In this document: positions 11,910 through 42,494 of the stretch, piece after piece | How positions within the stretch are numbered: position 1 is the stretch's first letter | How the letters are laid out: every line of letters starts with the position of its first letter | NCBI GenBank assembly: GCA_947561395.2 | Contig: OX387185.1 | Span: forward strand, 32,158,213-32,222,212 | DNA: 64,000 bases | Direction of reading: 5' to 3' | Source: Buxus sempervirens | Taxonomy: Eukaryota; Streptophyta; Magnoliopsida; Buxales; Buxaceae | Notes under the pieces: generated by a model | The model's database searches: none | Told to the model about the DNA's origin: nothing | What the model saw: the letters and a program-made list of their open reading frames with translations, nothing else | Position numbers and translations under genes: made by a program

Positions 11910-11944
11910 ACTGGGTCTAATGAAACCTTTTTCCTGGAGCTCAT

Positions 11945-13825: not shown

Positions 13826-13923
13826 AATACAATTTCACTTGTTAGAATCCAATAATTCTAGGGGTTCTATCTAGCGTACTCACAATCCCATTCCCCTAAA
13901 GCTGGCTAATCTAAGGTTAGGAC

Positions 13924-13939
13924 CATTGCTTTGATACCA
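13924..13939 (-). other. Primer binding site, initiator tRNA-Met type
   Basis: On the minus strand TGGTATCAAAGCAATGG begins four bases inside the 5' LTR end. It matches the usual plant iMet primer-binding site (TGGTATCAGAGC) with one difference. This is the expected primer for Tekay/Del-like and many other plant elements. Confidence 0.85.
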
Positions 13940-13943
13940 TCTC

Positions 13944-20133: not shown

Positions 20134-20277
20134 TGTATTCGGCAACTCAGGCCGGATACAAGTGTCCTTCTTTGTATCTGATGGAATATACCGGATACAA
20201 GCTGACCTCAGTGTATCCGGCATCATAGACCGAATACATTAAGGCGCTCGTGTATCTGGCCTGATATGTCGGATACA
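20134..20277 (+). promoter_or_regulatory. Four palindromes at 39-bp spacing in the 5' LTR U3
   Basis: Copies of a 27-nt dyad, approximately TGTATCCGG-N9-CCGGATACA, start at 20134, 20173, 20212 and 20251, exactly 39 bp apart. The left half-sites have point changes here (TATTCGG, TATCTGA, TATCTGG). The array ends about 165 bp upstream of the TATA box at 20445. Clustered, helically phased dyads upstream of a promoter suggest binding sites for a dimeric protein. That is inference from layout. Confidence 0.8.
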
Positions 20278-20444
20278 CAAGTTTTGCTCAAAATTAGGGT
20301 TTTCCGAGAGCTTTTCACTTTTACCATCATATCCCTCATTAAATGAGTGGAAATCTCGGAAATGACCTTAGGGTTAAGGTTGGTGGGCTATAGACATTAT
20401 GTTGTGTCTACCATTCTCACCAACCCCTAACCCTAGCCTTTGCC

Positions 20445-20452
20445 TATAAATA
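20445..20452 (+). promoter_or_regulatory. TATA box of the 5' LTR
   Basis: TATAAATA lies in a CC-flanked context (GCCTATAAATAGGAGG). It is conserved at 40560-40567 in the 3' LTR and, on the minus strand, at 48955-48962 in the related solo LTR. It is the likely start of genomic transcripts. Confidence 0.75.
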
Positions 20453-22381
20453 GGAGGATCCTCCTTAAGCAAATGGCCATTAACTCTTGCCTTGAATTCT
20501 TGCCAAGAATCTCTGCCAAGAAGAGCTCCGAGTGAAGAGGGAAACCGCTGCGGAAGTGCTTCCAGAACCCAGGTAAGCCTCAAACTTTTCTTTTATTTTC
20601 TGTTTTTACATTTCTAGATCTAGATCTCTTCTTCTACCTTTCTGTAGAATAAGGCCTTTTTGTGTGTATGAAAATCCTTTCCCGGCTCAAAGTATCTCAA
20701 GACTCCCCCTAGCCATAAAACGTGAAGGCGGGATCTAGGAGAAACGAGACTGGGGATTGACCCTAGCACTAGAACCTATTTAGAATAAAGCCTTTTGAAT
20801 CTTTGAAGCCCGTTTCATATTCAAAGTACCCCAAGATTATCTTGAAGAACCGTGTTTAACGGGGAGAGAGAACTAAGGGAAACGACAATAGAACGGAACC
20901 CTAGGTTGTTTTTAGAAGCCTATTTTGAATGAATATGAATGCATGATATGTTGTTATATTGTTCTTGAATGATTTCCATTTACACATACATTGCACCCGT
21001 TTTGGCGGAATAGGCTCATATTTCGAGTTTATTGCATTTATTGTGATAAATCTGAAATAAATGGCCTCAATCAATTCTAGAATGTTTTGAAATGATTTTT
21101 AAAGGTTTTGTATTCATCTTGCACGAATTGCACACACGTTGTCACAGTTTTGAATTGTTTTTCTCCAAAAAGGGCTTAACTTGACAGAAACTGTACCCCG
21201 ACTTCAGACACTCATAACTTCATCGTCCAGATGAATTTTGGAGTGATTCTAGAACCATGGGAAAGGTGAGGCTGTCTAGTTTATGTTCACCAAATTTCAT
21301 TAATTTCTATCTAGCGGATTGTTCACACCTCTCTGTCGAAGTTGGTTGGACAGTTCAGGTTTAAATACGGAACTTTTCACCTCGACTGAGCACCATGTGT
21401 TCGTTTTAAATCCGATTCGAGTGATTTTTGTTTCTGGGAACTCCTTTATGAGTCTATTTTCAAATCCAGTTGGTTTCATAATTTTTTTGACTCCATTTGT
21501 ATTATTGGTAACAGATTTACTCAGAACTGCTCAATGGCACTTTTCTGGGTAAATCTGTGATCTTCGGGGCCTGTTCGAGAGACCACCCAAGGCACATCCG
21601 AATGAATTTTTGTATGAGACTAGTTTTATTTGAAATATGGCCATACAGACTTCAATCACACCAAATTTCATGGATTTTAATGTAGCGGATGTTTCTGGGT
21701 GATTTTCCAAACTTGCCTACTTGCTACTTTTAATTTTCTCCAACAGCAACTTTAAAGGAGCATAACTCCTAGGATTTCAACCAGATTTAATTGAAATTTT
21801 GCATGAGTCTCTTATTTTCCATGATCTTTCAAATGGATTTGGTTTGATTCAATTTAAAATTGATTTTGAATGATTTCAAGACAAATGGCATTATTTTTCA
21901 CCGAATTTTCCGGATTTAACTCAACTTGGTTTTGTGCAACTTTTACTTTGGATTTCCATTTTTGTTGATATTCTAGAAATGATATTGACATAAAAGAGGA
22001 TCTGAAATTCATTTGGATCTTCATGTGGAGATATCATATATTTGGCCTTTTTCAAGGTTTTTGATAATTTTTAGATAGCTTTCTTATTTCTTTTTTTGCA
22101 TGAACAAACACTTGGCAACCACCTTGTGTGGATGAATGGGGGTGCCTAACACATTCCCCCGTTCATAATCTAATCCCCTTACCCATCTCTGGATTTGATT
22201 TTCAAGTAGGGTTATTTTTACCCTAGAATTTGTCTTTTAGCTATTTTTGCTTATCTTTAATCTTTTGGTGTCCATTCTCACCTCAAAATTCTGAATGGTG
22301 GCGACTCTCCCACATTTTGCGTTGAGCCCGTGTGTTGACGGAGGGGAAATCATCCCGGTGATTTTTCCCATGTCTCACAAC

Positions 22382-22400
22382 TGGCGACTCTGCTGGGGAC
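22382..22400 (+). other. Primer binding site of the Tat-lineage element
   Basis: TGGCGACTCTGCTGGGGAC starts two bases after the LTR end. It begins with the TGG complementary to a tRNA CCA tail. Tat/Ogre elements often use tRNA-Arg. I cannot verify the tRNA identity from this window. Confidence 0.75.
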
Positions 22401-23911
22401 TTGTGGATTTAAGCCATTTTGTGTATATTCATGCTTTTTCTTTACTTTTGAATGCTTGCTATTTTGCTTACTTTATTTGTGCATATTATTGTGTTTCAAA
22501 TCAGATTGGGATGCTTTTGAAATTTATATGGATCAAGACATGTATGTGTTGCTTGATGTTGTCTAAAGGTTGATTTAAGAGAAGCCTATCTTGAAGCATG
22601 ATTTTGATGCATTTGATGATAACATGCTCTAATTTGAATTTTTAATGCCATGGGTTGAACATGAGAATTAGGAGCATGAGATCTAGGAGTTCAGAATTTT
22701 TGGGGTATTCAAACATGATTCCCATGAACAAGGCTTTCTTGTGCTTAATGTTTTTTATGCCATGCCTTTGATTTGGGGTATAGGGGGACTTGATTTGAGC
22801 ATGAAAGCAATGAGCAAAAATCTGGAAATTCAGTAGCTATTTTGGAACTTTTCAAGCATGTTCTCCCTAATTAAAACATCTATTGTATCATATTGTTAGT
22901 TGCTGAATTTTAGGCTTCAATTTGAGTAGGAACAATGCATGTTGAGCACAAAAAATGAAGAAAAAAATCTGGAAATTTTAGTGTATATGTTGGGAGATTT
23001 CAAGCATGTTTTACCTAATTGAAACACTTTTTGGACCATGTCAAGTAGTTGCTGAATTTTTAGGCTTCAATTTGGGTAGAAATGGTACACTTTGAGCATG
23101 AAAAAGAGCACGAAAATCTGGAATTTTAGGGAATGCTTTTGGGTTTCAAGCATGCTTCCATGGTTTAATTGTTGTTTGCACAAATAACATGTTTGTATAC
23201 TACTTTTTTGGGCATGTAATACTTGTGTGCATATTTAGTGGCTTTGGTTCTCTTGCTTGCTTGTATTTAGCTTCATTATATTGTCATATGTGCCTTGGCT
23301 TGAAATTGTATGCATGGCTACGAAAAATAGTGGTAAGGGGCTGGGACGTTGTGAATGTTACCTCAAATTTTAAATGCACTTGAGCACTTTAAACTATTTT
23401 CACAGCCTACCCATTACCTATAGGAAGTTGAACCCCGAATGTGTGTAGCTTGGCGCACCGAGGTCGTGACTTCGGAAAGCGAAAGTGAAAACATTTACCT
23501 TAGAATTTGAGTCAATGATGTAATGACAATGGGATCTGTGATTCGATTCCGGGCATCACTAGACTTGAGTTCTAAGTTGCCAATTAAGCCAAAACCCAAA
23601 AACCATACGCTTGAAGGTGGAGAAACACGTTTTCAGCTAAAAGTACACAATTACGTTTGGGGAATTGGGTGTAAATGTGGGAAGGCCGTTTGCATGTTTT
23701 ACAGGCCAAGGTATACTATGAATACCATATTGAAGGTAATACAAGGTGGCAAGGTAAAGCCATGTTCTTTTTATGAATTTGTGAATATTGCAAGAATGAT
23801 GTCCAAGCCCAATTTGGGGCAAGTTTTAGAGGCCAAGTTAAGGTGAACATCAAGTGGGAATGAAAATAACCTAATCTGGTAAAAAAATGAGTCAAAAAGG
23901 GCCATTTCGGC

Positions 23912-24053
23912 ATTAACCGGCAACTCAGGCCGGTTAAGAACAACTCTATTCGTATCTGGCATATAATACCAGTTACAAAGGTTTATGCGTGTATCCGGTC
24001 ATTGTTGCCGGATACAATAAGACATGGCTTTATCCGGTACTTAATGCTGGATA
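23912..24053 (+). promoter_or_regulatory. Internal copy of the 39-bp palindrome array, before gag
   Basis: Four dyads start at 23912, 23951, 23990 and 24029, again exactly 39 bp apart. The first is TTAACCGG...CCGGTTAA and keeps the CAACTCAGG loop of the first LTR unit. The others have (T)GTATC-type arms. The array therefore looks like a duplicate of the U3 array with drifted arms that still pair. Confidence 0.78.
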
Positions 24054-24344
24054 CATGCAGAAAATGTGTAAATTGGCTTTTTCAGCCCGAATTTCCAGAA
24101 TAAAATGCCTAAACACTGTGGATAATCCTTAGGCACCCCAAAGAGAATATAAAAATGTTTCAAAAATATATATATATTCTTTTAGGATTAAACCTAATTT
24201 TGAAACTCAAAGAGCAAGCTAAGGTGTCATATTTTTTGATATCAATTCAATTCAAACATGTGTCAATCAAGCTTTTGAACTAGAAAACTGAGAAGATTCA
24301 GTAAGTTTCAAAAAAAATAAATAAATAAATAAAGAAAAAAAACC

Positions 24345-24823
24345 CTTGGTTGGTTATTTTTATCAACCAAATCAAAAAATTGTGGGACCTCTGGAAGCCC
24401 TAAAATATTCCATGAAACCCTTGGTTGGTTATTTTTATCAACAAAATCAAAAAATTGTGGGACCTCTGGAAGCCTTAAAATATTCCATGAAACCTTTGGT
24501 TGGTTATTTTTATCAACCAAATCAAAAAATTGTGGGACCTCTAGAAGCCCTAAAATATTCCATGAAACCCTTGGTTGGTTATTTTTATCAACCAAATCAA
24601 AAAATTGTGGGACCTCTGGAAACCCTAAAATATTCCATGAAACCCTTGGTTGGTTATTTTTATCAACCAAATCAAAAAATTGTGGGACCTCTGGAAGCCC
24701 TAAAATATTCCAAGAAACCTTTGGTTGGTTATTTTTATCAATCAAATCAAAACATTTGTGATACACTTAGAAGCCCTAGAGTATTCCAAGAAACCTTTGG
24801 TTGGTTATTTTTATCAATCAAAT
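24345..24823 (+). repeat. 75-bp tandem repeat, about 6.4 copies
   Basis: Units begin at the TTGGTTGGTTATTTTTATCA motif near 24345, 24420, 24495, 24570, 24645, 24720 and 24795. Most contain TTGGTTG...CAACCAA, an inverted repeat with an 11-nt loop. The last two units are more diverged. Because 75 is divisible by 3 the array is open on both strands, giving periodic 25-residue proteins that I do not regard as genes. Confidence 0.93.
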
Positions 24824-24825
24824 AA

Positions 24826-24900
24826 AACAAAAACAAAAAAAAAACCAAAAAAAACCAAAAAAAAAAAACGAAAAAAAAACAATAAATAAAAAAAATAAAT
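24826..24900. repeat. A-rich low-complexity tract
   Basis: Runs of A broken by CC, G and AAT lie directly after the 75-bp repeats and before the gag frame. No other feature is visible. Confidence 0.85.
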
Positions 24901-24959
24901 CCGGACTTGTGTTCACCCAACCTACTTGTCTACATATATAAGGGTATGACCCAAGTTAA

Positions 24960-26510
24960 ATGGAATCTGACGTGTCTCTTTACATCCTTATCCAGGTACA
25001 CTTATTTGCAACCATTGCTCCCGTGACCAAATCCAAAGCCAGAGCCATGAACACTGAAGAGAACCAAGCCCAAGCTACTGTCCCCGCTCAAGACTTTGCT
25101 CAGCTGATGGAGCAAGTGGCTGGTCTGGCCAAGATGCTGGGGGACTTACTGGCGGCTCAGGCCCAACAGGCCCACGCCCAAAACCAGGCCTCTACCTCCC
25201 ATCAAGCACCACCACCTCAGGCCTATATTCCGCCTTCGGCTCAACCCATGCCTGAGCCCGTTTCTGAACCGGTCCCTGAAGCCATTCTGATAAGGGAAAA
25301 TACAGCAGAATCCGAGAAAGAACTGGAGAAGGAAAAGGCTAGGGAAGAAACTGAAAGGAAAATGCTGCTCAGGATAGAAAGGATCCAGGAAGAGTTGAAG
25401 GAGGTAAAAGGGGGAAACAGCTACGGGGGTACCACTTTTGATGATCTCTGCATGTACCTTGACGTATGTCTACCGGCCAAATTCAAGTGCCCGAACTTTG
25501 AAAAATTCGACGGCACAGGCTGCCCTATGAGTCACTTGAAACTATACTGTGGGGCCCTATGCCAATTTGGCCGGGATGACGGCATACTAATCCAACTCTT
25601 CCAGAGGAGTTTGACCGGGTCAGATCTTAGGTGGTTCGCCATTCAGGAGGTGGAAGGCTTGGCCGACGCCTTTTTGGACCAGTACAAGTTTAACTCGGAG
25701 ATCGTACCGGACCAGTACGACATGATGAGAATGAGCAAAGGGAAAGATGAGCCTGTACGACGGTACGCCAAGAGGTGGAGAGAGGCCGCCTCCCAGGTCA
25801 GGCTGCCTATGCAGGAACCGGAAATGATCTCAACATTCATGGGAACATTGGGGCAGCCTTTCTACAACCATTTGGTGGGGCAAATCACCACCAACTTTGC
25901 AGCCCTGGTGCAGGTGGCGGACCAGATCGAGGAAGGGGTCAGGTCAGGAAGGCTCATAGATTACTCCACTCTAACTGGGCAATCTGATTCCTCTGCCTCC
26001 ATGGCACAAAAGAAGGGAACGGGGTTCAAAAAGACCGGGGCCCGGAAAGAAGGAGAAGTAAATCTGGTCCAGGCTCCTCCCGCCAAGAAGCCGCTTCATG
26101 TGAACATCTCGGCACCTCAACAGGCCCAACAGTCGTACCAGACCCCGTTGAATGTCAACTTCTCCCCCTCCGTGCCAGCAAACCCAAGGAGGGCTTTTTC
26201 CAAGGAAGAGAGGGAGGCCTGGTTGGCAACAAGAAGGAACCGAGTCTTTACTCCCCTGCTTGTATCTCTTTCCCAACTACTGCCAACACTGCTAAAAGGG
26301 GAATATGTGACTCTGAAGGAGCCCAGCCCGAATGCCACAAAGGGAAGGAACTTTGATCCGGCAGTCACCTGTGACTTCCACATGGGTGCTCCAGGACACT
26401 CCACAGACACTTGTTGGGTTTTGAAGCATGCGGTCCAGGACCTATTGGACCAGAAGGCATTAGTGTTCAACACTGCTACACCCGCCCAGTCGGGGAATGA
26501 TATTGGGTAG
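24960..26510 (+). pseudogene. gag of the Tat-lineage element
   Basis: This is a 516-codon frame. The likely native start is the internal ATG at 25047 (MNTEENQAQ), since earlier residues look like leader. It has a Gln/Ala-rich N-terminus and a charged coiled-coil-like segment (ESEKELEKEKAREETERKM). The capsid-like Retrotrans_gag region follows (FEKFDGTGCPMSHLKLYC, LDQYKFNSE, FMGTLGQPFYNHLVG) at about residues 170-340. The C-terminal metal-binding motif CDFHMGAPGHSTDTCW (CX2HX6HX4C-like) is typical of Tat-lineage Gag. The frame ends at a TAG (26508-26510). The same frame reopens downstream with a second TAG at about 26678, so both stops are probably mutations within one gag-pro frame. Confidence 0.9.
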
Positions 26511-26714
26511 AACCCTCTACCTTACCACAATGGGGCAGGCCCATCCAACTTTATCACTGCCATATCCACCATAAGAAAGGCCTTTGACTCATCTCAGCTC
26601 ATAGCTCTCGTAGGGACCACGGTCAAGGTCCATTTTTTCCAAGAAAAAGAAGAAGAGGAGATCCATATGGTCTCCTAGAAAAACAACCATGCTGCTGAGG
26701 ACATCAGTTCCTCT

Positions 26715-28031: not shown

Positions 28032-28721
28032 TAAAGAAAGTGATGGAGAAATACCACTTTCACCCGGGGAAAGGCCTGGGAATCAATTTACAGGGAATGG
28101 TGGAGCCAATCTCGGCCAATAAACTGATCCCTAAAGTAGGGTTGGGCTTCAAGCCCAGAGGGTAGAGAAGGCAGAAACATGAAGAAGGAGAGACAAGAAG
28201 CAAAGGAAAAGTCCCTCACTTAAGGGAAAATTTCCCTAAACCCTCCATTACAATCCAACTGTCTCCTCCTATGGACCAGTCCAAGCCTCCTTACCGCAAC
28301 ATCAATCCATACCAAAGAACCTCTGTTTCGGCCTTGCAACCGTACAACCCATCTCCTATGCTTGGGACAGTGGATGGGCCTGGGCCACAGGCAGGGCAGC
28401 AGACAGACTTCTCTGAAGATGTTGGGGCTTTCTTCGCCATGACTGAAGGCGAAAAAACTGGTAGTGACAATGAGCTACCATTCATTGACTGGGCCGCAAT
28501 GAAAATCCCAGATGAGGTCATATTTGGACTGGGCCCCATAGCAGAAAAGGGCAGTACCCACTCGGTGATGATGGCATCGGATTCCGGGCTTGAGCAGCGG
28601 GCTTGCACAATTTCCCCCGCTCCCAAAAAACTTTTTTAAATAATTGGGAGGAAACTCCCTTTACCTTTGAAGCAGCGTTTGTGTGGCAAACTGACGCGGC
28701 TTCCAAAAAAAAACTCAAATA
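28032..28721 (+). pseudogene. Degenerate protease-RT spacer of Tat pol
   Basis: The segment just after 28029 reads ...PGKGLGINLQG...KVGLGFKPRG, a glycine-patch-like stretch seen between protease and RT in Tat elements, closed by a TAG near 28162. A 122-codon frame (28271-28639) with acidic and Gly/Pro-rich composition (FSEDVGAFFAMTEGE) is in another frame and continues the spacer. Several frame changes separate it from RT. Confidence 0.65.
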
Positions 28722-30689
28722 GTGGATTGCCATTTCCCTGAAGGTCCTAATGAGCCTTCGTCTTCAGGGGAATTATGTTTAGAAGGCTCACAAAAAAACC
28801 AAAAAGATTTTTCTATTTTTTCTAGAAAACTTAATTTTTTCAAAAAGGTCCAAACCACTTATGAACCATATAATCAAACCGAATTGGACCAGGTTGAATA
28901 TGACTTCGACTTTGAGCTCGACTTTGACCTCATGGGGATCGAAGAAGAGACCGAGGTCGAAGAAGAAGACGTTCCAAAAGAAATTGAATATCAATTGGAA
29001 CATCATGAAAAAGGGGTCCAACCTAATATTGAGGAGACCATATCCATAAATCTTGGGACCGAAGATGACCCAAAAATAGTAAAAATCGGTGCATGCTTGT
29101 CTGATGTGCAGCAAAATGAAATGACACGATTTTTGGCAGATTACAAGGATGTGTTTGCTTGGTCATATCCGGACATGCCGGGGTTGGACACTGACATGGT
29201 GGTGCACAAATTGCCAATTTTGCCAGGGGTTAAGCCAATCAAGCAGAAGCTGAGAAGATTGAAACCTGAATGGACTCTAAAGGTCAAGGACGAAGTGGTC
29301 AAGCAATTCCAGGCAGGGTTTCTGGCAGTCTCTATGTATCCTGAGTGGCTTGCAAACATAGTGCCGGTACCAAAGAAGTACGGGAAAGTCAGAATGTGTG
29401 TGGACTACAGAGATATGAATAAGGCAAGCCCAAAGGACGATTTTCCGCTCCCACACATCGACATTCTGGTCGATAATACTGCGGCACATAGCCTATTCTA
29501 TTTCATGGATGGTTTCTCGGGATATAATCAAATCAAGATGGCTAAGGAAGATCAAGAGAAAACAGCGTTCATCCCACCTTGGGGCACATTCCACTATACA
29601 GTCATGCCATTTGGGCTTAAAAACGCTTGGGCAACATATCAGCAGGCCATGACTGCACTATTCCATGACATGATCCATAAGGAGATGGAGGTCTACGTGG
29701 ACGATATGATTGCCAAATCATACAAAGAAGAGGACCACTTGATCAATCTGAAGAAAGTGTTTGATCGACTCAGAAAGTACAGTTTATGGCTTAACCTGGC
29801 TAAATGCGTCTTTGGGGCTACATCAGGGAAGTTACTGGGGTTTATAGTGAGCAGAAGAGGAATTGAAATTGACCCGGCTAAAGCCAAGGCCATTATTGAA
29901 ATGCCATCACCCAGAACAGAGAAGGAGGTTAGGGGCTTTCTTGGAAGAATTCAATATATAAGCCGGTTCATAGCACAACTCACTGCTATCTGTGAACCAA
30001 TTTTAAAACTTCTGAGGAAGGATAACCCAACGGTCTGGAATGAGGACTGCCAGCAGGCTTTTGATACAATAAAGAAATATTTGCTTAATCCACCTGTGCT
30101 AGTGCCACCAACTCCAGGAAGACCATTGATCCTATACTTGTCAGTGTTGGAAACATCGATGGGATGTGTCTTGGGGCAGCACGATGAGACTGGAAGAAAA
30201 GAAAGGGCCATTTACTATCTGAGTAAAAAATTCACAGAATATGAAGCCAAGTACTCACCGTTGGAAAAGACTTGCTGTGCTCTAGTGTGGGCAACTCAGA
30301 GGCTAAGGCATTACTTCCTTAGTCACTCCACACTATTGATATCCCGGATGGACCCTTTGAAGTATTTATTTGAGAAACCAACACTAATTGGCAGAACGGC
30401 AAAGTGGCAGCTACTACTATCCGAGTTTGACCTCACGTACATCACTCAGAAGGCGATTAAGGGTCAAGCCATAGCTGATCACCTGGCTGCACATCCTTTG
30501 CCAGAATACCAACCGTTGAAGACCAACTTTCCTGATGAGGCAATTCTATTTACTGAAGAAGAGGAAAGTGAAAGTTCTTGGCAGATGTTCTTCGATGGGG
30601 CTGCCAACATGAATGGAAATGGAATTGGGGCAGTTTTGGTCAAGCCAGATGGGTCCCACATCCCGATTGCAGTGAAGCTAAGATTCTAG
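28722..30689 (+). pseudogene. Reverse transcriptase, RNase H and start of archaeal-type RNase H
   Basis: This is a 655-codon frame. After an acidic N-terminus, RT spans about residues 140-420: WLANIVPVPKKYGKVRMCVD, FMDGFSGYNQIKMA, MPFGLKNAWATYQ and the catalytic YVDDM at 29694-29708. RNase H (about 475-600) shows KYSPLEKTCCALVWATQRLR. A second, archaeal-type RNase H begins at SSWQMFFDGAANMNGNGIGA (about 630), the hallmark of the Tat lineage. The frame is cut by a TAG at 30687-30689 inside that domain. Confidence 0.93.
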
Positions 30690-31435
30690 TGCACCAATAA
30701 TATTGCAGAGTATGAAGCATGTATAATTGGGTTGCAAGCCGCCATAGATCACGAAGTGGAGAACTTGACGTATACGGAGATTTGAGTCTTATCATCTTCC
30801 AAACAACTGGTGAATGGAAAACCAAGGATCACAAATTGATCCCCTATCACCAGTATTTGGAAGAAATAAGCACAAATTTTACTCGAATTTCCTTTAATTA
30901 TATGCCAAGGGCCAAGAATCAGTTCGCGGACGCTCTAGCAACATTGGCTTCCATGGTCAGTATGCCAGAAGGGGTAGACATCAAACCACTGGAAATTGAG
31001 GTCAGGGATGAACCGGCTTATTGTCTCGTTCTAGAGGGAGCACCCGAAGAAGAAGCACCATGGTTTCAAGATATCAAAAATTTCTTGAACAATCGGAGTT
31101 TGCCAGAAAATGCCACTTCTACTGAGAAAAGGACAATACAGAGATTGGCTGGTCAGTTCCTGCTAAGCCGTGGACACTTGTACAAGAGGTCGCATAATGA
31201 TATTCTGCTTAGATGTGTTGCTAAGGCTGAGTCAAAAAGGCTGATCGAGACTGTACATGGAGGAGTTTGTGGACCCCATATGAATGGACACATGCTGGCG
31301 AAGAAAATCCTAAGGTTAGGATATTACTGGTTGACCATGGAGCATGATTGCTATATACATGTCAGGAGGTGTCACCAATGTCAGATATATGCAGATAATA
31401 AGCATGCACCCCCAAGTGAATTGCACACAACATGA
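30690..31435 (+). pseudogene. Rest of archaeal-type RNase H and integrase zinc region
   Basis: After the TAG the same frame reads NNIAEYEACIIGLQAAIDHE. A shift near 30785 moves the rest into the frame open from 30719 to 31435, with YMPRAKNQFADALATLASM (end of RNase H). The integrase N-terminal HHCC motif then appears (HGGVCGPHMNGHM...CHQCQ, about 31256-31385). The frame ends at TGA near 31433 with the integrase core following. Confidence 0.88.
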
Positions 31436-33295: not shown

Positions 33296-34974
33296 CTAGT
33301 CTCTGTCTCCTAGCCGCTCCTCAAGCTCCCGAATCCGAGCTGCCTGAGCTGCAATAACTTCAGAAGCCCCCTCTGCATCGGGATCACTCAAGAAGGAAAT
33401 GACCTCATCTAAAAGAGTCTGCCTAATCCTCATGCTCCTAAGGCTGGCTAAAGCATCTTGGTGCTTCTGCCTCAAGGCTCGGACTTCAAGACAGCGAGCC
33501 TGCCTATGCGCCTTAAGTTGCTTCTCCATAGCCAGACGGCGGGATACCTGCTCTGCAAGATGCCTCTCCATGTCAAGGCCCCGTATCCTAAGCTCCTGGG
33601 CCTCTCGTACCCATATCTGCTGAAGTCGCTTGTGAAAAGCTCTCTCAGACTCCAGAATGTCCTCATAAGTAGGAGCCAAAACTGCAAGAGGACCTTCAGG
33701 TACTGAGGCCTGACTCTGTATCCGCTCCCTGATCCAGAAAAGGTAGTCCTTCACATGGGACTCTGAGAAGACTGGGCCCCGCATGAAGCGAACATAAGAC
33801 CACTCCCTCATCAACCAAGCATTCAGCTTCATGGTGGCTGGTGAAAGAGGCCCAAGGTGGTCCTCATATCCACTTGGGATTATAATCCCCTGGGTTGCTC
33901 TGAACTGACGAAGAACCCGCAAAGGAAGGTAAAGCACCGCGTGTCTCAAGCCAGCCAAAACCAAAAAGTTGCGGTCTTGGAAGCTGATCACCATCTCTGC
34001 ATTGGGCTGATAGGTACCAGGCCACCTCACCTGATCATCCTGGAATGTAGCCAAGAAAGTAAACCAACCCCGTTTACCCCCTGGAATGTCAGGACACCCC
34101 CGGTTGCTCATCAAAATGGGAACTTTCAAGCTTGGGAAGAAGTGCCGATTTATTTCCTCAATCTGACTCAGATGGTCAAGTAGCCAGAGCTGCAAGGGAG
34201 GAGACATATTTCAGTGTATTGCAAAAGAAAAAAAAATGCAAAAAAAAAAAGTGCAAAAAAATTTACCTGCAGGACAGGGGCACATGATAAGAAGCGTTTT
34301 GATTTCCTGTTGTAGCAGTCAGTCAAGGCCTGATACATCTCTGCCAAAATCATAGGAGCCAATCTCTCCCACTCCCTAACCTGGCATACCACTGAGATCA
34401 AGGCCAAGTCTACCTCATCATCATCTTGGGGGAAAAGTAGCTGGTTGACCAATATCAGGATCAAGGCATTGAACCTGGCTTCCTTGTTCTCCCCCCTTAA
34501 GAGCTTCTCAGTCAGAAAGGACTTAGACAGAGTCAAAAGGGTGTCAGAATCCCCTAAATCCTTCTTCCCTATGCCTAGGAAAGTAGAAGCCTCCTTCTTG
34601 TAGCTGGGCCTGAGGGGTGGATTCACTACCTTCTCATCAAATCTCAAGCCTATGATGGTTTCCACCTCCTCAATGGTCGGGGTCATCTCATGGTTCCCAA
34701 AACGGAAAAGGCTAAGGTCGGGTACCCAATGGCCAATCATGGCTTCAATAATCTCCCATTTGAAGGGAACCTTCGGGATAAGCAGAAGGTGGCCTAGATG
34801 GTTGGAATCCCATCTCCTCTCCTCATCCAGGGTCATAGAATTAACCCACCTACTATAAAAAGAGTCCATGGGATTGTACCTAGTAAGATTAGGTGGTTTT
34901 GATCTAAAAGGGTGTTTTGCAGGGGAGGCTTTGTGGACAGACAATGGCAAGGCAGAAGATGATCCGGATTCCAT
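33296..34974 (-). CDS. Antisense two-exon gene with plant mobile domain (PMD), apparently intact
   Basis: Exon 1 is 34974-34267 and exon 2 is 34189-33296. The 77-bp intron has GT (34266-34265) and CTCCCTTGCAG, and joins the exons in phase 0 (VLQ to LWLLDHL). The spliced frame is open for about 533 residues from ATG at 34974; an upstream in-frame ATG at 35067 is less likely because a TATA-like box lies at 35087-35094. The N-terminal half shows the PMD core (HWVPDLSLFRFGNHEMTPT followed by IEEVETIIGLRFD), and the second half continues it (LWLLDHLSQIEE). Residues 430-533 are predicted coiled coil rich in Arg, Gln and Leu. PMD is known from MAIN/MAIL1 and from transposons. The function of this copy is unknown. 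It is antisense to gag-pol and head-to-tail with the second PMD gene at 35446-38182. Confidence 0.82.
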
Positions 34975-35086
34975 TGGAGATGATGGGAGCAAGCCAGAAA
35001 TCAATGGGAGGAAGAAAAAGGCGAAAAAGGGGTTTTCTAAACTCAAAAACTCGTAAAAAATGCGCAAATCCCGAGGCTGGTTGCAT

Positions 35087-35094
35087 TTATAGCA
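35087..35094 (-). promoter_or_regulatory. TATA-like box of the intact PMD gene
   Basis: On the minus strand CTATAAATG lies about 115 bp upstream of the ATG at 34974 and 10 bp downstream of the palindrome array. The spacing fits a short 5' UTR. Confidence 0.6.
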
Positions 35095-35102
35095 TGTTTT
35101 AA

Positions 35103-35246
35103 TGTATCCGGTATATCAGATCGGATACAAGTACATTTATTCATATCCGGTGAACAATACCGGATACAAAGAGTTTTAAATGTATCCGGTATAACATACC
35201 GGATACAAAGAGAACTCAATGTATTCGGTCTGACATACCAGATACA
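35103..35246 (-). promoter_or_regulatory. 39-bp palindrome array upstream of the intact PMD gene
   Basis: Four dyads start (plus coordinates) at 35103, 35142, 35181 and 35220, exactly 39 bp apart. The third, TGTATCCGGTATAACATACCGGATACA-like, is almost perfect. This is the same repeat and the same spacing as in the LTR U3. It sits immediately upstream of the TATA-like box of the gene at 33296-34974 and downstream of the stop of the gene at 35446-38182. Confidence 0.82.
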
Positions 35247-35445
35247 AAGAAAAATTGCAAAAAAAAGAGGAAAGGGAGAAAAATCCGAAATTTTTACCTG
35301 TTTTACCTGTATACAAGTCATAATTACATGAAATTGAAAAGAAAAGAGAGCTAGATAAGAGAAAATGAATAAAAATTTCTTTTCATATATATAAATTGTG
35401 TTTGTACAAGGGATAAGGAAAAACAGAAATCCTAATCTACTACTC

Positions 35446-38182
35446 CTATGCAGGATCTCCTCGGCATCCTCTGCCCCGTCCTCCTCTGCGACCTCTGCCT
35501 CGAGGTGATCGACGCCTAGAGTACGCCAGAATACGCTCGGCAGCATGGCAAGGAAGCCTACCCACAACTGACTGAATCTGATACTCCAAACAATAATCAT
35601 CGAGGTCTGGGGGCGGATCAGAAGCAGAATCAGAAGAGGCCTCTGGCTCAGCAGCAATCGGCTCAACTGGGCCCTCAGCCACAGCAGCCTCTACTCCCAC
35701 AGATCCGGAAGGCCCAGCAGCAGTAGAAGAGGAACCGGGAATAGAAGTATCTGGGTCAACAGAAAGGGTCAGAAGTAGAAATATCAAGATAAACCAAAAA
35801 GGGAAAATTAAAGACAAACTTACCAGGAATATCTACAGTGGGAACTGGGGGATCCGGCTCAACCAGATCGGCAACAGGGATGTCCTCCGGCTCAGGTATC
35901 ACCACTGGAGATGAAGGACCCACAGGATCCTCAGGAGCCGCCACTGGAGATGGATCGGGAACAATAGATGGAGCATCCTCAGCAGCCCGAACTGGAGAAA
36001 GATTAGGAGCTGGGGGAGCTGGCTCGTAGGCAGCATACTGATCTGGAATGGGACCATGCAAAAGTCAAAACAGGCATATCAGACTAGCGGAAACATGGAA
36101 ATGGAAAAGATGAAATTACAAGAAAACCAGATACTTGTCTAGCCTGGAGCTCAGCAACCAGAGCCTCTAGCTCTCTGATCCTAGCATCCCGCTGGGTCAC
36201 AGCCGCGTCATGCTCTGCGATCATATCCTCGATCGCGGCCCGCTGGCTATGAAACCGATCCCGAATGAGATTTAGCTCATGTACCTGCCAATAAGAACAT
36301 AATTAGAGTCAGAAATGCAGAATTGAAGAAAAATGGGATGGAAGAAGAGAATCACAAAACTCACCGTATCATCATGGATCCGGACATAGATCCCGCCAAT
36401 CTCAGTCACTCCGGCATGAGTGGGTTGATCCATCAAGCACCCAATGGATACTCTCTGGATCCACACGTCGTAATCCCCAGCTACTGTGAGCCCCTCCGCA
36501 TCCTGGAAATCAACATCAAAACCCGGCAGGAGCCTGTCGGGACCCACAGGAGGAGGAGGAACGGGGATACGAAGTGCTCCGGTGTGCTGATAGTACAGGC
36601 ACTCTCCCAAGTACGTCACCCTACCAAGCCTCCCAAGGAAGCACTGGTAGGGTTGACGTCGCCGATCTCTATCAAAGGCATCCTGTATTGCCATCTCATG
36701 GGCCACTCTGACATCCACGTCGTCAAAGCGGGACAGGATGAGCTGCAAAGAAGAAAAATGGTCAGATACAGTCAAGATGCAGAAAAAGAAATAAAAGGAA
36801 AAATGAGAAAGGATTTACATCGGATCGGCGGGCGCGGTCCAAGTGCACCCGAGCAGTGCGAGGCTGACTCCTATCAGCATCTCGGACCTGGGCCGACCAC
36901 CGCAGAGCCACAGGGAACTCCGCGACCTCAGGTACCGGGGATGGGCGGAAGAAAGTCATATAGGTGTACATAAACACCTGGCAAAAGAAAAATCAGTCAG
37001 AAATAAAGGAAGATAAAGCCCAAGGAATTAAACAAGACAACTTAATACCTGTAGGATCTGCCAGAAGAACCGGCAGCTGACTCCATCACCTCTCGGGGAT
37101 GCCAGGCCTCAAACCGCTCGGCACAACCCGGCTAGGATGGTCCCATAGATGAGTCGACCCCATGCTAGCTGGCGAGTCTGATGAAAATCTCGCAGAGCAT
37201 CCAAGAAAAGCGGGCTGACGCTGGTCGTATCCTCTGGGAAGAAGCAGCTCCCGAGCATCAGTAGGAAAACATGCCGGAAGATAGGTACAAAGGCTGCGTC
37301 CTCCACAGCAACAGTCGCATGTCTCCCCCCGTAATGACGAGCCAGGCTCTCCTACAACCAACTAATGGAGAGATGACCACTCCGCCCATCCCAAGCAGCG
37401 GGAGGCAGGGCCGGATAGCCCAAGAGAAGGCCAATGTCCTCCACGGAAGGCCGGTCCAGAACGATAGTCCGCCCCGTCAAAGGAATACCAGTAATCATCA
37501 CAAAGTCGGGGGGCGGATCCCTAGCTCCACGTCTAGCAGATGGAATGACTGAGTCTCCGGAAAATATCTCTCCATCATGGCGAAGATGAGTGGATGGTCG
37601 GCTCTGAACGAGGGGATGTTGAGAAAATGATCCCAGTGGCACCTCCCAAACTCCCGCCTGAGTGCCGGGGAAAGCAACTGAGCTAAGTCACTAAATCTCC
37701 CCCAACTACCCCGCAGATGGGAAGAATGATATGGAAGCGGCACATCGGCCCGGATACACATAGAGGGGTGGCTATCCAAGCCACTGAGGAGCTCTGTATC
37801 CTGAACAGATGCTCTCAGCTCCGCAGAGACCCCTGACAAAGCTACGGCAGTACCATCCTGAGCCGCGCCCCTGGCTCTGCCTCGGCCTCGGCCTCTGCCA
37901 CGGCCTCCCTCACCCTCAGGGGCCTGATCCTGAACTCTGCCTCGACCTCGGGTAAGAGCAATAACGGGCTAAAATCCAAAAGGAAATGTGAAGGTCTGTG
38001 GGGAAAGAGAATGGAAGGAAGGAAAGAAGAATTTGAAAGCCTACCTCAGCAGAGCTCTCCCTGGAGACATCTAGTGGCTCCAACAGGGTGGCGCTGGAAC
38101 TCGCCTCTGTCCGAGCCCGCGAAGTGGAGGGCTAATCAGCAGGGTCAGCCTCCTCTTTGACTCGGGAACGACTCCTAGCCAT
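35446..38182 (-). pseudogene. Antisense multi-exon PMD gene, decayed
   Basis: Proposed exons are 38182-38045, 37968-37049, 36977-36819, 36742-36365, 36284-36128, 36042-35824 and 35750-35446. All junctions are GT-AG and keep frame; the fifth donor is the least certain. Exon 1 is Arg/Ser-rich. Exon 2 holds an RGRGRGR tract and a PMD (MMERYFPETQSFHL, FVMITGIPLTGR, then FHQTRQLAWGRLIYG). Exon 5 is coiled coil (RIRELEALVAELQ), exon 6 Pro/Glu/Asp-rich, exon 7 ends in an RGRGRRGGRGRG tail. Damage: TAG in exon 1 (38132-38134), a one-base loss near 37511, TAG at 37352-37354 and TGA at 37109-37111. The layout resembles plant MAIL/PP7-long-form-like PMD genes. It is antisense to pol and upstream of the intact PMD gene. 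Confidence 0.75.
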
Positions 38183-39499
38183 CTACACAAGGAAGTGTTT
38201 TATGAATTTCAGAAATTTTGCTTTGCTTTTGGTTTAGGTTGCAGTCCACATTCAATCTTACATGATTTTTTCCAAATTATCGCAAATTATGTCTCGAGGG
38301 TATTTTGTCTATTTTAGTTCAAAGTTTTCTAAAATGATGAGTATTGATATTTGGTGAAATCCTGATTCTAGAACTTTGTGTTCTAAGGACATTTACAAGG
38401 ACTAATATTTGCTAAATTTCCTCAGGATCCCTACAGGAGAGCTGGACAGTGTTGTAAAAGCAAATAAAGTATCGGAATAAAATGTGGAACCCGAGGGGCC
38501 AATCAAGGAAAAGTCTTGGCAGTCGAAGCATCATTTTGGTCAAAGGCATGCTAAAATCAGATCGAGGAAAAATCAATCATAACATGGTATTTGGAAAGTT
38601 TGCACTACCAGTGATTCCAAAACAGTGGAAAGTTATATAACTCAGTGGAAAATGTCGATCCGCCTCAAAGGAATTGCCGGCCAAGAATTAGCAGGGCAAA
38701 TCAAATTACAGAACAACAAGGCATCAATCAGAAATTAAGAGCATCAGGTGACATGCAGAAGAGGAAGAATTGCAGTCCTAAGCATCATACATAAAAATAA
38801 GCATATTCCCACCGCGGAAATTCAGTGGGCAATATATCAGAAGCATAGGATCATGCAACTCAATTCAGTGTTTTCAAGCAATGGACAGGTTTTGGGTAAT
38901 GCAATGGTTTCTGCCATCAATTGGAGTTTATCACAGGAAAAAAAAAATCATGCGATCAACAATTTGAGAGAAAATATCACCAACAGGCAATCAGTCGAAT
39001 TAAAAATCTGGCAAGACAAATTGAGAAACCAGAGCAAACAGTAGTATCAGCAATTCATAAAGAATCAGGAGCATCCGAAATGCAGAATCTGAAAGTCATG
39101 CCATTCGTCCAATGCTCTAAGCATGCAGCAAATCAACACAACAGAAAAAAAGAGAGGGGGAATGATCGGATGCTCACTGATTTGGTCAGATTACAAGGGG
39201 GAGATGATCTTCGGATGAGCTGAGTTAAGTCGCCGGAGCAAACACCCCACGACGAGCTGAGAAAACCACTGAAAATCCAAGGAAATCGAGCTAGGGCTCG
39301 ACCACGGCCAAGAATGGGCGACAATGGAAGTCGCCGGAGTTACAGGCCGTCGCCGGCAGCAATAGAGGGCACTGGAGCTACTGGAGATCGCCGGAGAAGA
39401 AGGAAGAGTCGTCGGGGACGAAGAAGAGAGGAGATGTAGCCGGAGTTAGTAATCGGGGAAGCAAGAAGAGAAGGGGAAAAGTCGTGGTCGCGCGCGACT
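38183..39499 (-). other. Presumed 5' leader or leader intron of the decayed PMD gene
   Basis: I see no PMD or other coding domain. Positions 39225-39460 are GC-rich with repeated GCCGGAG (minus strand CTCCGGC) motifs, as in plant 5' UTRs. Positions 38190-39200 are AT-rich and intron-like. A TATA-like TTTTATAAG (minus strand, 39498-39506) precedes it, so transcription could start near 39470 and splice to the ATG region at 38182. This is inference. Confidence 0.45.
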
Positions 39500-39511
39500 T
39501 ATAAAACCTTG

Positions 39512-39577
39512 TGTATCCGGTGAATCAGGCCGGATACACACGAGCCCTGCCTTATCCGGTATGCTACACCGGATACA
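39512..39577 (-). promoter_or_regulatory. Two-unit 39-bp palindrome array upstream of the decayed PMD gene
   Basis: Dyads start at 39512 (TGTATCCGG...CCGGATACA) and 39551 (TTATCCGG...CCGGATACA), 39 bp apart. They sit next to a minus-strand TATA-like sequence at 39498-39506, repeating the layout before the other PMD gene. Any further units are replaced by the purine tract starting at 39583. Confidence 0.75.
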
Positions 39578-39582
39578 AAAGA

Positions 39583-39742
39583 AAAAACAAAAAAAAAAGA
39601 AAAAAAAAGAGAAAAGAGAAAAAGAAATGAAAAAAGGAAAAAAGAAAAGGAAAAAAAAGGAAAAAAAGGAAAAAAAAAAAGAAAAAGAAAAAAAAGAAAA
39701 GAAGAAAAAAGAAAAAAAAAGAAAAAAAAAGAAAAAAAGAGA
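39583..39742. repeat. Purine-only (A/G) low-complexity tract
   Basis: About 160 bp of almost pure A and G (AAAAAGAAAA-type) lie directly beyond the 39-bp array. Poly-Lys and poly-Phe open frames over it are artefacts. Homopurine tracts can form triplexes and slip during replication. Confidence 0.9.
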
Positions 39743-40133
39743 GCAAAAATGCATTGCAAAGTTAACTATTTTCACAAAAATCCTATTTTTGCCTTAAAAT
39801 CTACCTCACAACGACGAGAGCTCAGTGGAATTTAGGACAACTTTGGGAAATGTGTTGGTCAAAAAGGAGGATATCCACTCAATTTTTAACTTGGTTTAAT
39901 AAAAAAATCAGTTTTCAAAAAATCCTATTTTTGGGCTTAAAATCCACTTCATAGCCACGAGAGCTCAGTGGAATTTAAGAATTCTTGGAGGAATTGCCCC
40001 CTTAAAGTTAGGGCTTTTTGGCAAATCTTCACCTAAAAATTATTATTTTTACAAAATTGAATTGAACCAAGCAAATCAAGGGAGTGCAATTTGGGCTTGT
40101 CTAATCTTTGCAGCTCATTGCTGCGCAACTCCC

Positions 40134-40148
40134 ACAAAGAGGGGCAGT
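40134..40148 (+). other. Polypurine tract of the Tat-lineage element
   Basis: ACAAAGAGGGGCAGT abuts the TGTAGACACC start of the 3' LTR, the expected plus-strand primer site. Confidence 0.8.
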
Positions 40149-42494
40149 TGTAGACACCCCAAATTGCACTGTCAAAATGATCAATAATCACCAAAAATCA
40201 TTATCTCCTTGAAGGCCAGCACAGAATTTGAGAAAATGAGTTTTTTCCTTGTATCCGGCAACTCAGGCCGGATACAAGTGTCCTTCTTTGTATCCGATGG
40301 AATATACCGGATACAAGCTAACCTTAGTGTATCCGGTATCATAGACCGGATACATTAAGGCACTCGTGTATCTGGCCTGATATGTCGGATACACAAGTTT
40401 TGTTCAAAATTAGGGTTTTCCGAGAGCTTTTCACTTTTACCATCATATCCCTCATTAAATGAGTGGAAATCTCGGAAATGACCTTAGGGTTAAGGTTGGT
40501 GGGCTATAGACATTATGTTGTGTCTACCATTCTCACCAACCCTAACCCTAGCCTTTGCCTATAAATAGGAAGCTCCTCCTTAAGCAAATGGTCATTAACT
40601 CTTGCCTTGAATTCTTGCCAAGAATCTCTGTCAAGAAGAGCTCCGAGTGAAGAGGGAAACCGCTGCGGAAGTGCTTCCAGAACCCAGGTAAGCCTCAAAC
40701 TTTTCTTTTATTTTCTGTTTTTACATTTCTAGATCTAGATCTCTTCTTCTAGCTTTCTGTAGAATAAGGCCTTTTTGTGTGTATGAAAATCCTTCCCCGG
40801 CTCAAAGTATCTCAAGACTCCCCCTAGCCGTAAAACGTGAAGGCTGGATCTAGGAGAAACGAGACTGGGGATTGACCCTAGCACTAGAACCTATTTAGAA
40901 TAAAGCCTTTTGAATCTTTGAAGCCCGTTTCATATTCAAAGTACCCCAAGATTATCTTGAAGAACCGTGTTTAACGGGGAGAGAGAACTAAGGGAAACGA
41001 CAATAGAACGGAACCCTAGGATGTTTTTAGAACCCTATTTTGAATGAATATGAATGCATGCTATGTTGTTATATTGTTCTTGAATGATTTCCACTTACAC
41101 ATACATTGCACCTGTTTTGGCAGGATAGGCTCATATTTCGGGTTTATTGCATTTATTGTGATAAATCTGAAATAAATGGCCTCAATCAATTCTGGAATGT
41201 TTTGAAATGATTTTTAAAGGTTTTGTATTCATCTTGCACGAATTACACACACGTTGTCACAGTTTTGAATTGTTTTTCTCCAAAAAGGGCTTAACTTGAC
41301 AGCAACTGTACCCCGACTTCAGATACTGATAACTTCATCGTCCGGATGAATTTTGGAGTGATTCTAGAACCATGGGAAAGGTGAGGCTGTCTAGTTTATG
41401 TCCACAAAATTTCATTAATTTCTATCAAGCGGATTTTTGACACCTCTCTGTCGAAGTTTGTTAGACAATTCAGGTTTAAATACGGAACTTGTCACTTCGA
41501 CTGAGCACCATGTGTTCGTTTTAAATCCGATTCGAGTGAGTTTTGTTTCTGGGAACTCCATTATGAGTCTATTTTCAAATCCAGTTAGTTTCATAATTTT
41601 TTGACTCCATTTGTATTATTGGTAACAGATTTACTCAGAACTGCTCAATGGCACTTTTCTGGGTAAATCTGTGATCTTCGAGGCCTGTTCGGGAGACCAC
41701 CCAAGGCACATCTGAATGAATTTTTGTATGAGGCTAGTTTTATTTGAAATATGGTCATACAGACTTCAATCACACCAAATTTCATGGAGTTTAATTGAGC
41801 GGATATTTCTGGGTGATTTTCCAAACTTGCCTACTTGCTACTTTTAATTTTCTCCAGCAGCAACTTTAAAAGGAGCATAACTCCTAGGATTTCAACCGGA
41901 TTTAATTGAAATTTTGCATGAGTCTCTTATTTACCATGATCTTTCAAATGGATTTGGTTTGATTCAATTTAAAATTGATTTTGAATGATTTCAAGACAAA
42001 TGGCATTACTTTTCACCGAATTTTCCGGATTTAACTCAACTTGGTTTTATGCAACTTTTGCTTTGAATTTCCATTTTTGTTGATATTCCAGAAATGATAT
42101 TGACATAAAAGAGGATCTGAAATTCATTTGGATCTTCATGTGGAGATATCATATATTTGGCCTTTTTCAAGGTTTTTGATAATTTTTAGCAAGCTTTCTT
42201 ATTTCTTTTTTTGCATGAACAAACACTTGGCAACCACCTTGTGTGGATGAATGGGGGTGCCTAACACCTTCCCCCGTTCATAATCTAATCCCCTTACCCA
42301 TCTCTGGATTTGATTTTCAAGTAGGGTTATTTTTACCCTAGAATTTGTCTTTTAGCTATTTTTGCTTATCTTTAATCTTTTGGTGTCCATTCTCACCTCA
42401 AAATTCTGAATGGTGGCGACTCTCCCACATTTTGCGTTGAGCCCGTGTGTTGACGGAGGGGAAATCAGCCCGGTGATTTTTCCCATGTCTCACA
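40149..42494 (+). repeat. 3' LTR of the Tat-lineage element
   Basis: The LTR is 2346 bp, with the same termini and TATA box (40560-40567) as the 5' LTR. In the first 550 bp I count roughly 15 differences from the 5' LTR, and this copy keeps better-paired palindromes. It is followed by TSD CTGGG (42495-42499) and the remaining 255 bp of the interrupted solo LTR. Confidence 0.95.
40250..40393 (+). promoter_or_regulatory. 39-bp palindrome array in the 3' LTR U3
   Basis: Dyads start at 40250, 40289, 40328 and 40367, exactly 39 bp apart. The first pairs GTATCCGGC with GCCGGATAC perfectly. Relative to the 5' LTR, several left half-site changes are absent here, so this copy is probably nearer the ancestral state. 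Confidence 0.82.

Follow-up and report, generated by a model that had tools for sequence, protein, structure and literature searches.

Phased palindrome arrays at the LTRs and antisense-gene promoter of an Ogre-like retrotransposon in Buxus sempervirens: a candidate shared regulon

The layout described here has its closest published precedent, by analogy, in the palindrome arrays of the Sireviruses, a closer parallel than the motifs targeted by the VANC anti-silencing proteins of VANDAL (Mutator-like) transposons. According to the excerpted account of these Ty1/copia elements (PMC2829016), their RM boxes are clustered, CpG-rich palindromes that vary in sequence between elements, are placed upstream both of the TATA box in the LTR and, where env is present, of env itself, and carry a CGG-CCG core in 12 of the 13 elements listed; the motif is called Sirevirus-specific. 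VANDAL elements are DNA transposons in which short motifs are repeated in non-coding parts, differ among related elements and are bound by an element-encoded protein (excerpts of PMC5735166 and PMC10398659); the main texts of these papers do not term the VANC21 and VANC6 motifs palindromes.

Two further systems bear on the genes of the element. In excerpts of PMC11963269 and PMC7264820, the antisense ORF of Grande has a promoter upstream of it and a proposed regulatory role, and the antisense genes of Retand encode a TRP28 domain; these excerpts do not mention an array common to gene and LTR. The PMD proteins MAIN and MAIL1 of Arabidopsis are host proteins connected with transposon silencing and, by way of the DOWN motif of promoters (at MORC1, CATGCAGTTT), with gene expression, direct binding of the motif being unproven there (excerpts of PMC7156037 and PMC9899485). 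A PMD also occurs in the extra open frame of 57% of elements of the Ogre lineage (Ty3/gypsy, Tat clade), which is recognized by an extra RNase H lying between the usual one and integrase (PMC6317226).

The element and its arrays

The window, a 64,000-nucleotide stretch of contig OX387185.1, contains the following features.

20034-42494, plus strand: Ogre-like Ty3/gypsy LTR retrotransposon, CTGGG duplication flanking both ends
20134-20277: 5' LTR array, four dyads at 39 bp (20134, 20173, 20212, 20251)
20445-20451, plus strand: LTR TATA box, TATAWAW
23912-24055: leader (pre-gag) array, four dyads at 39 bp (23912, 23951, 23990, 24029)
24960-26510, plus strand: open frame, gag by position, without Pfam match
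28695-31435, plus strand: pol frames, with reverse transcriptase, RNase H, second RNase H-like and integrase zinc-binding domains (Pfam)
33296-34974, minus strand: PMD1 antisense gene, exons 34974-34267 and 34189-33296, predicted 77-nt intron, 533 aa, open
35085-35091, minus strand: PMD1 TATA box, 12 bp from the array
35103-35246: PMD1 promoter array, four dyads at 39 bp (35103, 35142, 35181, 35220)
37109-37968, minus strand: section of the decayed antisense gene PMD2 (PMD-like), split between frames and containing a stop
39512-39577: PMD2-side array, two dyads at 39 bp (39512, 39551)
40250-40393: 3' LTR array, four dyads at 39 bp (40250, 40289, 40328, 40367)
40560-40566, plus strand: 3' LTR TATA box, TATAWAW
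47562-49378, minus strand: solo LTR of a related family, AGTAT flanking both sides
49174-49274: solo-LTR array, CCGTA-N7-TACGG at 49174, 49202, 49230 and 49258, 28-bp phase

Two Ogre traits are present: RVT_1 and RNase H in 28695-30689 are followed by RVT_3 and then Integrase_H2C2 in 30716-31435, and the extra frame at 34171-35115 has a PMD (Pfam, E 2.8e-12). With RVT_1, and with integrase after the reverse transcriptase, the element lies outside the Ty1/copia Sireviruses; a neighbour at 56935 gives RVT_2, as Ty1/copia would. The primer site TGGCGACTCTGCTGGGGA, immediately 3' of the 5' LTR, may be the complement of tRNA-Arg, which would be a further Ogre trait. The LTRs (20034-22379 and 40149-42494) differ by 65 substitutions in 2344 aligned sites and 4 gap events. 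Exon 1 of PMD1 matches PMD (9.3e-12) and DUF7745 (3.6e-19) and exon 2 matches nothing in Pfam; the PMD matches of PMD2 are weak (E 0.008 and 0.0054, both below Pfam's cut-off). Pfam scans of the element found no VANC-like domain.

All 18 dyads reported by the sequence-only reading were recovered where it placed them, each of 27 nt and in 39-bp steps, and the exact core it gave, GTATCCGG...CCGGATAC, is limited to some of the units. Scored against TGTATCCGG-N9-CCGGATACA, the units reach 12 to 18 of 18; in 20 dinucleotide shuffles of the window, scores of at least 14 occurred at 0.15 sites per window and scores of at least 15 never. The pre-gag unit at 23912 (12/18) is not significant by score alone, 7.8 such sites being expected per window at 12 or above, and the first two units of its array show symmetric arm changes. 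A motif-free scan for phased dyads found both LTR arrays, the 35103 array, a 75-bp tandem repeat and the array at 49174, and did not recover the pre-gag and 39512 arrays in the window; 40 block shuffles gave no phased-dyad cluster. The spacer has A at position 7 in 13 of 14 window units, but a common array polarity at both kinds of promoter is not claimed, the 3' LTR and PMD1 blocks fitting nearly as well one way round as the other (35 versus 32 of 72 positions).

The arrays had been described as standing at five promoter-like places. This holds for the LTRs, where TATAWAW boxes lie downstream of the arrays, and for PMD1, with a minus-strand TATA whose 5' end is at 35091. The leader and PMD2 arrays have, as judged from sequence, no convincing promoter beside them in the window: the former lies 0.9-1.05 kb upstream of the gag ATG with the nearest downstream TATAWAW 93 bp off (density, 0.56 per kb and strand), and the minus-strand TATA of the 39512 array is imperfect (TTTATAAG). 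The idea that the phase would place units on one helical face is not supported: with 10.5 bp to a turn, each 39-bp step covers 3.7 turns, so that successive units do not share a face.

The features reported for Sireviruses recur in part. Palindromes with a CGG-CCG core lie upstream of the LTR TATA box, except in a switched subfamily (CGA-TCG, see below), and copies precede an extra gene, at 35103-35246. The clusters are CpG-rich by observed/expected ratios (1.06 in the LTR array versus 0.50 in the rest of the LTR; 1.03-1.44 in the other arrays, with 0.97 in one 500-bp flank of the PMD2 array), a measure other than the CpG-island program of that paper. What sets the present family apart, beyond its superfamily, is the 39-bp phase, an antisense PMD gene whose TATA box lies 12 bp from an array, and the concerted switching of half-sites within single elements; the excerpted Sirevirus account (PMC2829016) mentions neither a fixed phase nor antisense genes. 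The repeated unit, TGTATCCGG-N9-CCGGATACA, is not the DOWN motif, whose MORC1 example CATGCAGTTT shows no resemblance to the dyad.

Copies in the genome

The host genome (676 Mb) contains 20,484 exact dyads, versus none for the pattern read backwards. Arrays occur at all five places in 5/5 sister elements; these had been selected for a visible internal array, and the PMD1 array was therefore partly a criterion. Four units are present at 55 of 60 sampled PMD1 promoters, and a minus-strand TATA lies 12 bp from the array in 56 of the 60. The phase had been said never to slip: the step is 39 bp in 167 of 170 cases at PMD1 promoters and 38 bp in the other 3, and one LTR pair on C1 has a 77-bp step instead of 78. 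Two outcomes that the sequence-only reading had named as fatal to it, relatives without antisense arrays and loss of the phase in most copies, were thus looked for in these samples and did not appear.

Among the sampled copies, spacers and linkers diverge by 28-31% while array length stays constant; the upstream flank has 44 gap cells and a further 31 inserted letters, the linkers have 4 gap cells, and the arms and spacers have 0. The arms diverge by 9.9%, the 5' UTR flank by 5.2% and the upstream flank by 12.7%. As far as these alignments go, the fast parts are the spacers and linkers, and the arms show no slowing relative to the 5' UTR flank and not much relative to the upstream flank. An early reading put arm evolution at 0.13 times that of the spacers; it was toned down, since spacers and linkers outpace the flanks, and a column permutation test on the arms was not relied on, being circular (arms were defined by conservation). 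Constraint at the window locus was also rejected: since insertion, 3/72 arm sites changed versus 58/2200 LTR sites outside the array, and therefore the window copy was not protected. The spacer of unit 4 is found either way round, suggesting that it has been exchanged or flipped.

The arrays might instead work as RNA, as packaging hairpins in the genomic RNA or as sources of small RNAs. Folding z-scores lie between -11 and -12 for the arrays of the LTR and PMD1 and near -5.5 for that of the leader, and excess small RNAs lie on maize Sirevirus palindrome clusters (excerpts of PMC10760457 and PMC5311732). The two strands fold about equally well, however, and plus-strand mismatches are 9 of G-U type versus 8 of A-C type, so that the lack of strand bias led us to reject a hairpin as the sole reason for the arrays. 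The conserved distance to the antisense TATA likewise argues against a role as RNA, which we regard as very unlikely.

The related solo LTR shares 78% identity with the element's LTR in the final 340 bp, and 72% near LTR position 490-716. Its array, in which the right arm of unit 49230 has decayed, occupies the same LTR position as the 39-bp arrays with a different motif, and its CpG observed/expected ratio is 1.78 versus 0.24 in the remainder. In 200 kb of C1, one LTR of family-2 type was found, and no array at 6/8 exact arms. Farther afield, searches of IMG/VR with dyad, dyad-pair, PMD1, pol and primer-site patterns gave only isolated single dyads or unrelated matches; GTDB genomes searched by pol and primer site gave no relatives, nor did plasmids searched by pol, apart from one distant Wolbachia-plasmid reverse transcriptase.

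The half-site switch and the putative reader of the arrays

In two elements TGTATCCGG has become TGTATCCGA on both arms, in 27/28 and 16/16 arms of the arrays examined (5' LTR, leader, PMD1 and PMD2 in the first; 3' LTR and PMD1 in the second). Their arms read CGA...TCG, and the CGG-CCG core is gone from nearly all of those examined. Elements with states between unswitched and switched half-sites exist, and all switched copies may descend from a single lineage. Among 15 elements, chosen partly by PMD1 state and after the exclusion of five LTR pieces whose array was not readable, LTR state follows PMD1 state with rho 0.86, uncorrected for descent; left and right arm states are associated with an odds ratio of 7.7 (228 units, likewise uncorrected).

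A purely mutational origin can be imagined, in which methylated-C decay in CCGG, with template switching between palindromic units to spread variants, would act without any reader. All 9 arm changes within CCGG are transitions (14 independent window units), the switch affects the outer C/G, which is a CHG site, and the fast spacers and two-way unit-4 spacer fit such a process. Against it, the outer base was lost from 43/44 pooled arms of the switched elements and the inner CG from only 4/44 (3 arms in the first element, 1 in the second), whereas in the 440 arms of the remaining 58 promoters the two are about equally frequent, the outer base having changed 62 times and the inner CG 53 times. 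Furthermore, spacers of different arrays in a switched element still differ (on average 4.3/9 alike), and therefore units were not copied whole; unit number, 39-bp step and TATA distance are also kept in most copies. We consider this explanation unlikely.

The arrays are probably double-stranded DNA sites for one dimeric, sequence-specific factor and form one regulon. The half-sites change together at the LTR and the PMD1 promoter, which suggests that one protein reads all arrays, a single reader being inferred as the explanation of the concerted change. Such a factor would put the LTR promoter of the genomic RNA and the antisense PMD genes under joint control. The shared regulon of the earlier reading is thereby strengthened by the sister elements, the sampled PMD1 promoters and the co-changing half-sites.

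The reader might be a host transcription factor for CGG...CCG dyads, whose activation the element borrows for every one of its promoters; this reading is a variant of the same regulon, and its likelihood overlaps with that given above. LOB-domain factors may be candidates; one literature search that combined all terms found nothing. The Sirevirus palindromes upstream of LTR TATA and env fit a host factor, as does the resemblance of the Citrus Sirevirus consensus AATCCGGCTWRCCGGATT to the half-site here (excerpts of PMC2829016). The main motif contains CGG-N9-CCG, and the solo-LTR array read between units gives TACGG-N11-CCGTA, a reading that hinges on the register chosen. The switched subfamily, which lacks the CGG-CCG core in nearly all arms examined, shares a nucleus with unswitched copies, which tells against a host reader; we find it doubtful.

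We lean, tentatively, towards a reader encoded by the element, an option we rate as possible and ahead of the host factor. PMD1 heads the candidates, since its own promoter carries an array; it would activate or de-silence the element that encodes it, its own gene included, as VANC does for VANDAL. The VANC analogy drawn from the sequence at the outset appears reasonable, in that related elements carry different repeated motifs (CCGG, CCGA and the 28-bp array) at the same place; there the element's protein binds the motif and strips DNA methylation, and here PMD1 is a candidate, in an LTR retrotransposon. PMD1 had no match in a protein database at E <= 0.001 among 8000 candidates scored, and its exon 1 none among PDB sequences. 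We know of no PMD or similar gene in Sireviruses with comparable arrays, and an element-encoded PMD reader is therefore not needed for such arrays generally.

Implications for giant plant retrotransposons

It is conceivable, if short of probable, that a dyad-binding protein encoded by this family, PMD1 or a partner, reads the arrays of the LTR and of its own antisense promoter, and that symmetric, element-wide switches split off separately regulated subfamilies in a VANC-like manner. To our knowledge, no role has been assigned to the antisense PMD genes that giant plant retrotransposons carry; here such a gene is tied, from sequence alone, to the genomic promoter by a shared and co-changing site. 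The CCGG and CCGA copies in one genome are natural variant pairs for comparing specificity. Palindrome-array promoters, termed Sirevirus-specific (excerpts of PMC2829016), would then exist in a second retroelement superfamily, which, like the first, would tend to put copies ahead of an extra gene.

The element and its dyad arrays

The sequence-only reading placed 18 palindromic dyads in five arrays, and all 18 are present: four in each LTR, four in the leader ahead of gag, four at 35103 and two at 39512. As claimed, each dyad is 27 nt long (two arms around a 9-nt spacer) and neighbours lie 39 bp apart in all five arrays. In 20 shuffles of the window, sites scoring at least 14 of 18 arose at 0.15 per window, and none scored 15. 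The elements concerned, with their neighbours, are as follows.

20034-42494, plus strand: Ogre-like element; LTRs of 2346 bp, CTGGG on either side
6793-16299: second gypsy-type LTR element; LTRs of 2356 bp, 99.4% identity; integrase with SH3 tail
47562-49378, minus strand: solo LTR of a related family, AGTAT on either side
56935-60630: Ty1/copia polyprotein, a single open frame of 1231 aa

The element at 20034-42494 is Ogre-like as judged from its predicted domain order and PMD gene, on criteria given in PMC6317226. Plus-strand coding comprises reverse transcriptase and RNase H, followed by a second RNase H-like domain and an integrase zinc-binding domain; between the two LTRs there are 65 differences over 2344 sites. 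On the minus strand lie PMD1, an open gene of two exons (533 aa) whose first exon matches PMD and DUF7745, and PMD2, which is decayed and PMD-like, its weak matches falling below the Pfam cut-off. The array at 35103 is that of the PMD1 promoter, and the one at 39512 is on the PMD2 side. By eye, both antisense genes encode a coiled-coil-like ARIRELE-type stretch (33296-33420 and 36087-36302, minus strand), compatible with dimerisation, and the PMD2 region encodes arginine-glycine runs.

A motif-blind scan of the window recovered both LTR arrays and the array at 35103, and missed those of the leader and at 39512; 40 block shuffles of the window gave no clusters. The scan also picked up a 75-bp tandem repeat (6.5 copies, 24340-24827, between the leader array and gag) and an extra array at 49174, beyond the range originally claimed. 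The LTRs of the gypsy element at 6793-16299 contain no phased dyads.

Among 14 window units (those of the 5' LTR, a copy of the 3' LTR, being omitted), arm identity is 83-84% within and between arrays, with spacers at 42-46%, linkers between dyads at 31-38% and chance at 26%. At three arm positions the same base change occurs on both arms, against 0.3 expected. The four-unit arrays are akin as blocks (direct-orientation P 0.0003-0.004), the PMD1 array being ambiguous in orientation (35/72 matches direct versus 32/72 inverted). Mismatch types in the window dyads revealed no RNA strand bias. The CpG observed/expected ratio is 1.03-1.44 in arrays versus 0.50 in the remainder of the LTR. Weak dyad symmetry of the entire four-unit array, beyond the arms, was seen at 40250-40393 and 35103-35246 (P 0.005 and 0.012), where unit 1 resembles inverted unit 4; the leader array lacks it (P 0.18). 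Lone dyad-like sites inside the antisense genes (34311-34337 and 37732-37758) score 14 and 15 of 18, above chance, and have no neighbours at 39 bp.

Conservation of number and phase among relatives

The exact dyad occurs 20,484 times in the host genome; read backwards, the pattern does not occur at all. Among the matches listed, five apparently full-length relatives (sisters) were chosen whose LTR arrays are separated by about 20.4-20.7 kb and which showed an internal array. All five have arrays at all five places. The PMD1 array had partly guided this choice and the leader array had done so in a single sister, but the PMD2 array in none; with units scoring below 13/18 excluded, each has four units per LTR, three in the leader, four at PMD1 and two at PMD2. 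Steps are all 39 bp, apart from one 38-bp PMD1 step in two of the five.

A PMD1 protein search of the host genome yielded 5,664 initial candidates. Scoring was confined to the best 150, at 88-100% identity, and 60 promoters were hand-picked from these, a sample biased toward copies near the query. Four units are kept in 55 of the 60, three in two, and two, one and none in one each, so that retention in relatives is borne out here as in the sisters. The phase had been said never to slip; 167 steps are indeed 39 bp, but three are 38 bp. A minus-strand TATAWAW lies 12 bp from the array in 56 promoters, 11 bp in one and 161 bp in one, and is absent from two. Elsewhere, two dyad pairs separated by 9.5 kb (C1:3385845-3395483) both step 77 bp versus 78 expected; they may belong to a short, non-autonomous relative that has slipped by one base. 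In another element the two LTRs disagree in their final step, which measures 39 bp in the 5' copy (L091: 314, 353) but 69 bp in the 3' copy (L090: 1641, 1710), so 30 bp were inserted after integration.

An alignment of 26 PMD1 promoters (20 samples, the five sisters and the window) shows array length kept while linkers drift: linkers differ pairwise by 31.3% with 4 gap cells. Spacers differ by 28.3% and arms by 9.9%, both with 0 gap cells; the upstream flank differs by 12.7% (44 gap cells, 31 inserted letters), the 5' UTR flank by 5.2% (4 and 18) and the TATA box by 1.1%. So the arms change no more slowly than the UTR flank, and it is spacers and linkers that are unusually fast. When the PMD1 arrays of five genomic copies (L073, L080, L082, L083, L132) and the sisters were compared with the window (35220-35246), identical unit-4 arms proved to enclose the spacer in either direction, as tctgatat or reverse-complemented, suggesting that palindrome loops flip or that units exchange sequence.

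The solo LTR carries an array of its own at 49174-49274, four CCGTA-N7-TACGG dyads with a 28-bp period and one decayed right arm. It occupies about 105-205 of the LTR, with TATA at 417 or 418; the first family's array occupies 102-245, with TATA at 412. A second LTR of this family (L060, 82.6% identical) aligns without gaps across the array, its units partly decayed. The two families are therefore alike in array position and unit number and differ in sequence and period.

A coordinated change of half-site

Some copies have the outer base of the half-site changed from CCGG to CCGA, giving GTATCCGA-N9-TCGGATAC. In the element at C10:21.456-21.478 Mb, 27 of 28 arms carry the half-site TGTATCCGA or its mirror (5' LTR, leader, PMD1 and PMD2 arrays; no 3' LTR array was found within the piece fetched), with the inner CG altered in 3 of the 28. 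In that at C10:27.465-27.471 Mb all 16 arms examined (3' LTR and PMD1) are switched and one has an altered inner CG. In the remaining 58 PMD1 promoters, counting the intermediates, 62/440 arms show an altered outer base and 53/440 an altered inner CG. Three intermediate elements have 6, 7 and 5 of 8 arms switched in the LTR and 4, 3 and 3 of 8 at PMD1.

LTR and PMD1 states are correlated (rho 0.86, P 4.6e-5, ignoring descent) in 15 elements with both arrays readable, a non-random set in which some were fetched for a switched PMD1 and others as unswitched controls; L135, L136, L137, L140 and L141, in whose LTR pieces no array was found, were excluded and the LTR piece L092 was not entered. Left and right arm states of PMD1 units are likewise associated (odds ratio 7.7, 228 units, descent ignored). 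The switched copies could all belong to a single lineage. Spacers in different arrays of the first switched element average 4.3/9 alike (4.0 in two unswitched elements); they still differ, so the switch did not spread by whole-unit copying.

A possible reader and known counterparts

One factor touching both half-sites would read the arrays of an element, with a specificity that differs among subfamilies; such a reader would explain number, spacing, symmetry and place as well as the concerted switch. One of the reasons proposed for the spacing had been sites on one helical face, but a step of 39 bp makes 3.7 turns of the helix, which rules out a shared face as the cause. Fixed geometry between adjacent dimers, or nucleosome exclusion, would be possible causes.

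From the sequence comparisons we lean toward a reader encoded by the element, because switched and unswitched arrays share one nucleus and because an array lies at PMD1's own promoter. A host factor stays a strong alternative: Sireviruses, which are Ty1/copia elements, have CGG-CCG palindromes at the two corresponding kinds of site, in the LTRs and ahead of an extra gene (PMC2829016). An element-encoded reader has its parallel in the VANC anti-silencing proteins of VANDAL transposons; repeated motifs that differ among related elements, as in the families described here, are already known there (PMC5735166, PMC10398659). A literature search of titles and abstract beginnings in a largely open-access collection found neither such arrays announced for Ogre elements nor a concerted motif switch announced for a retroelement.
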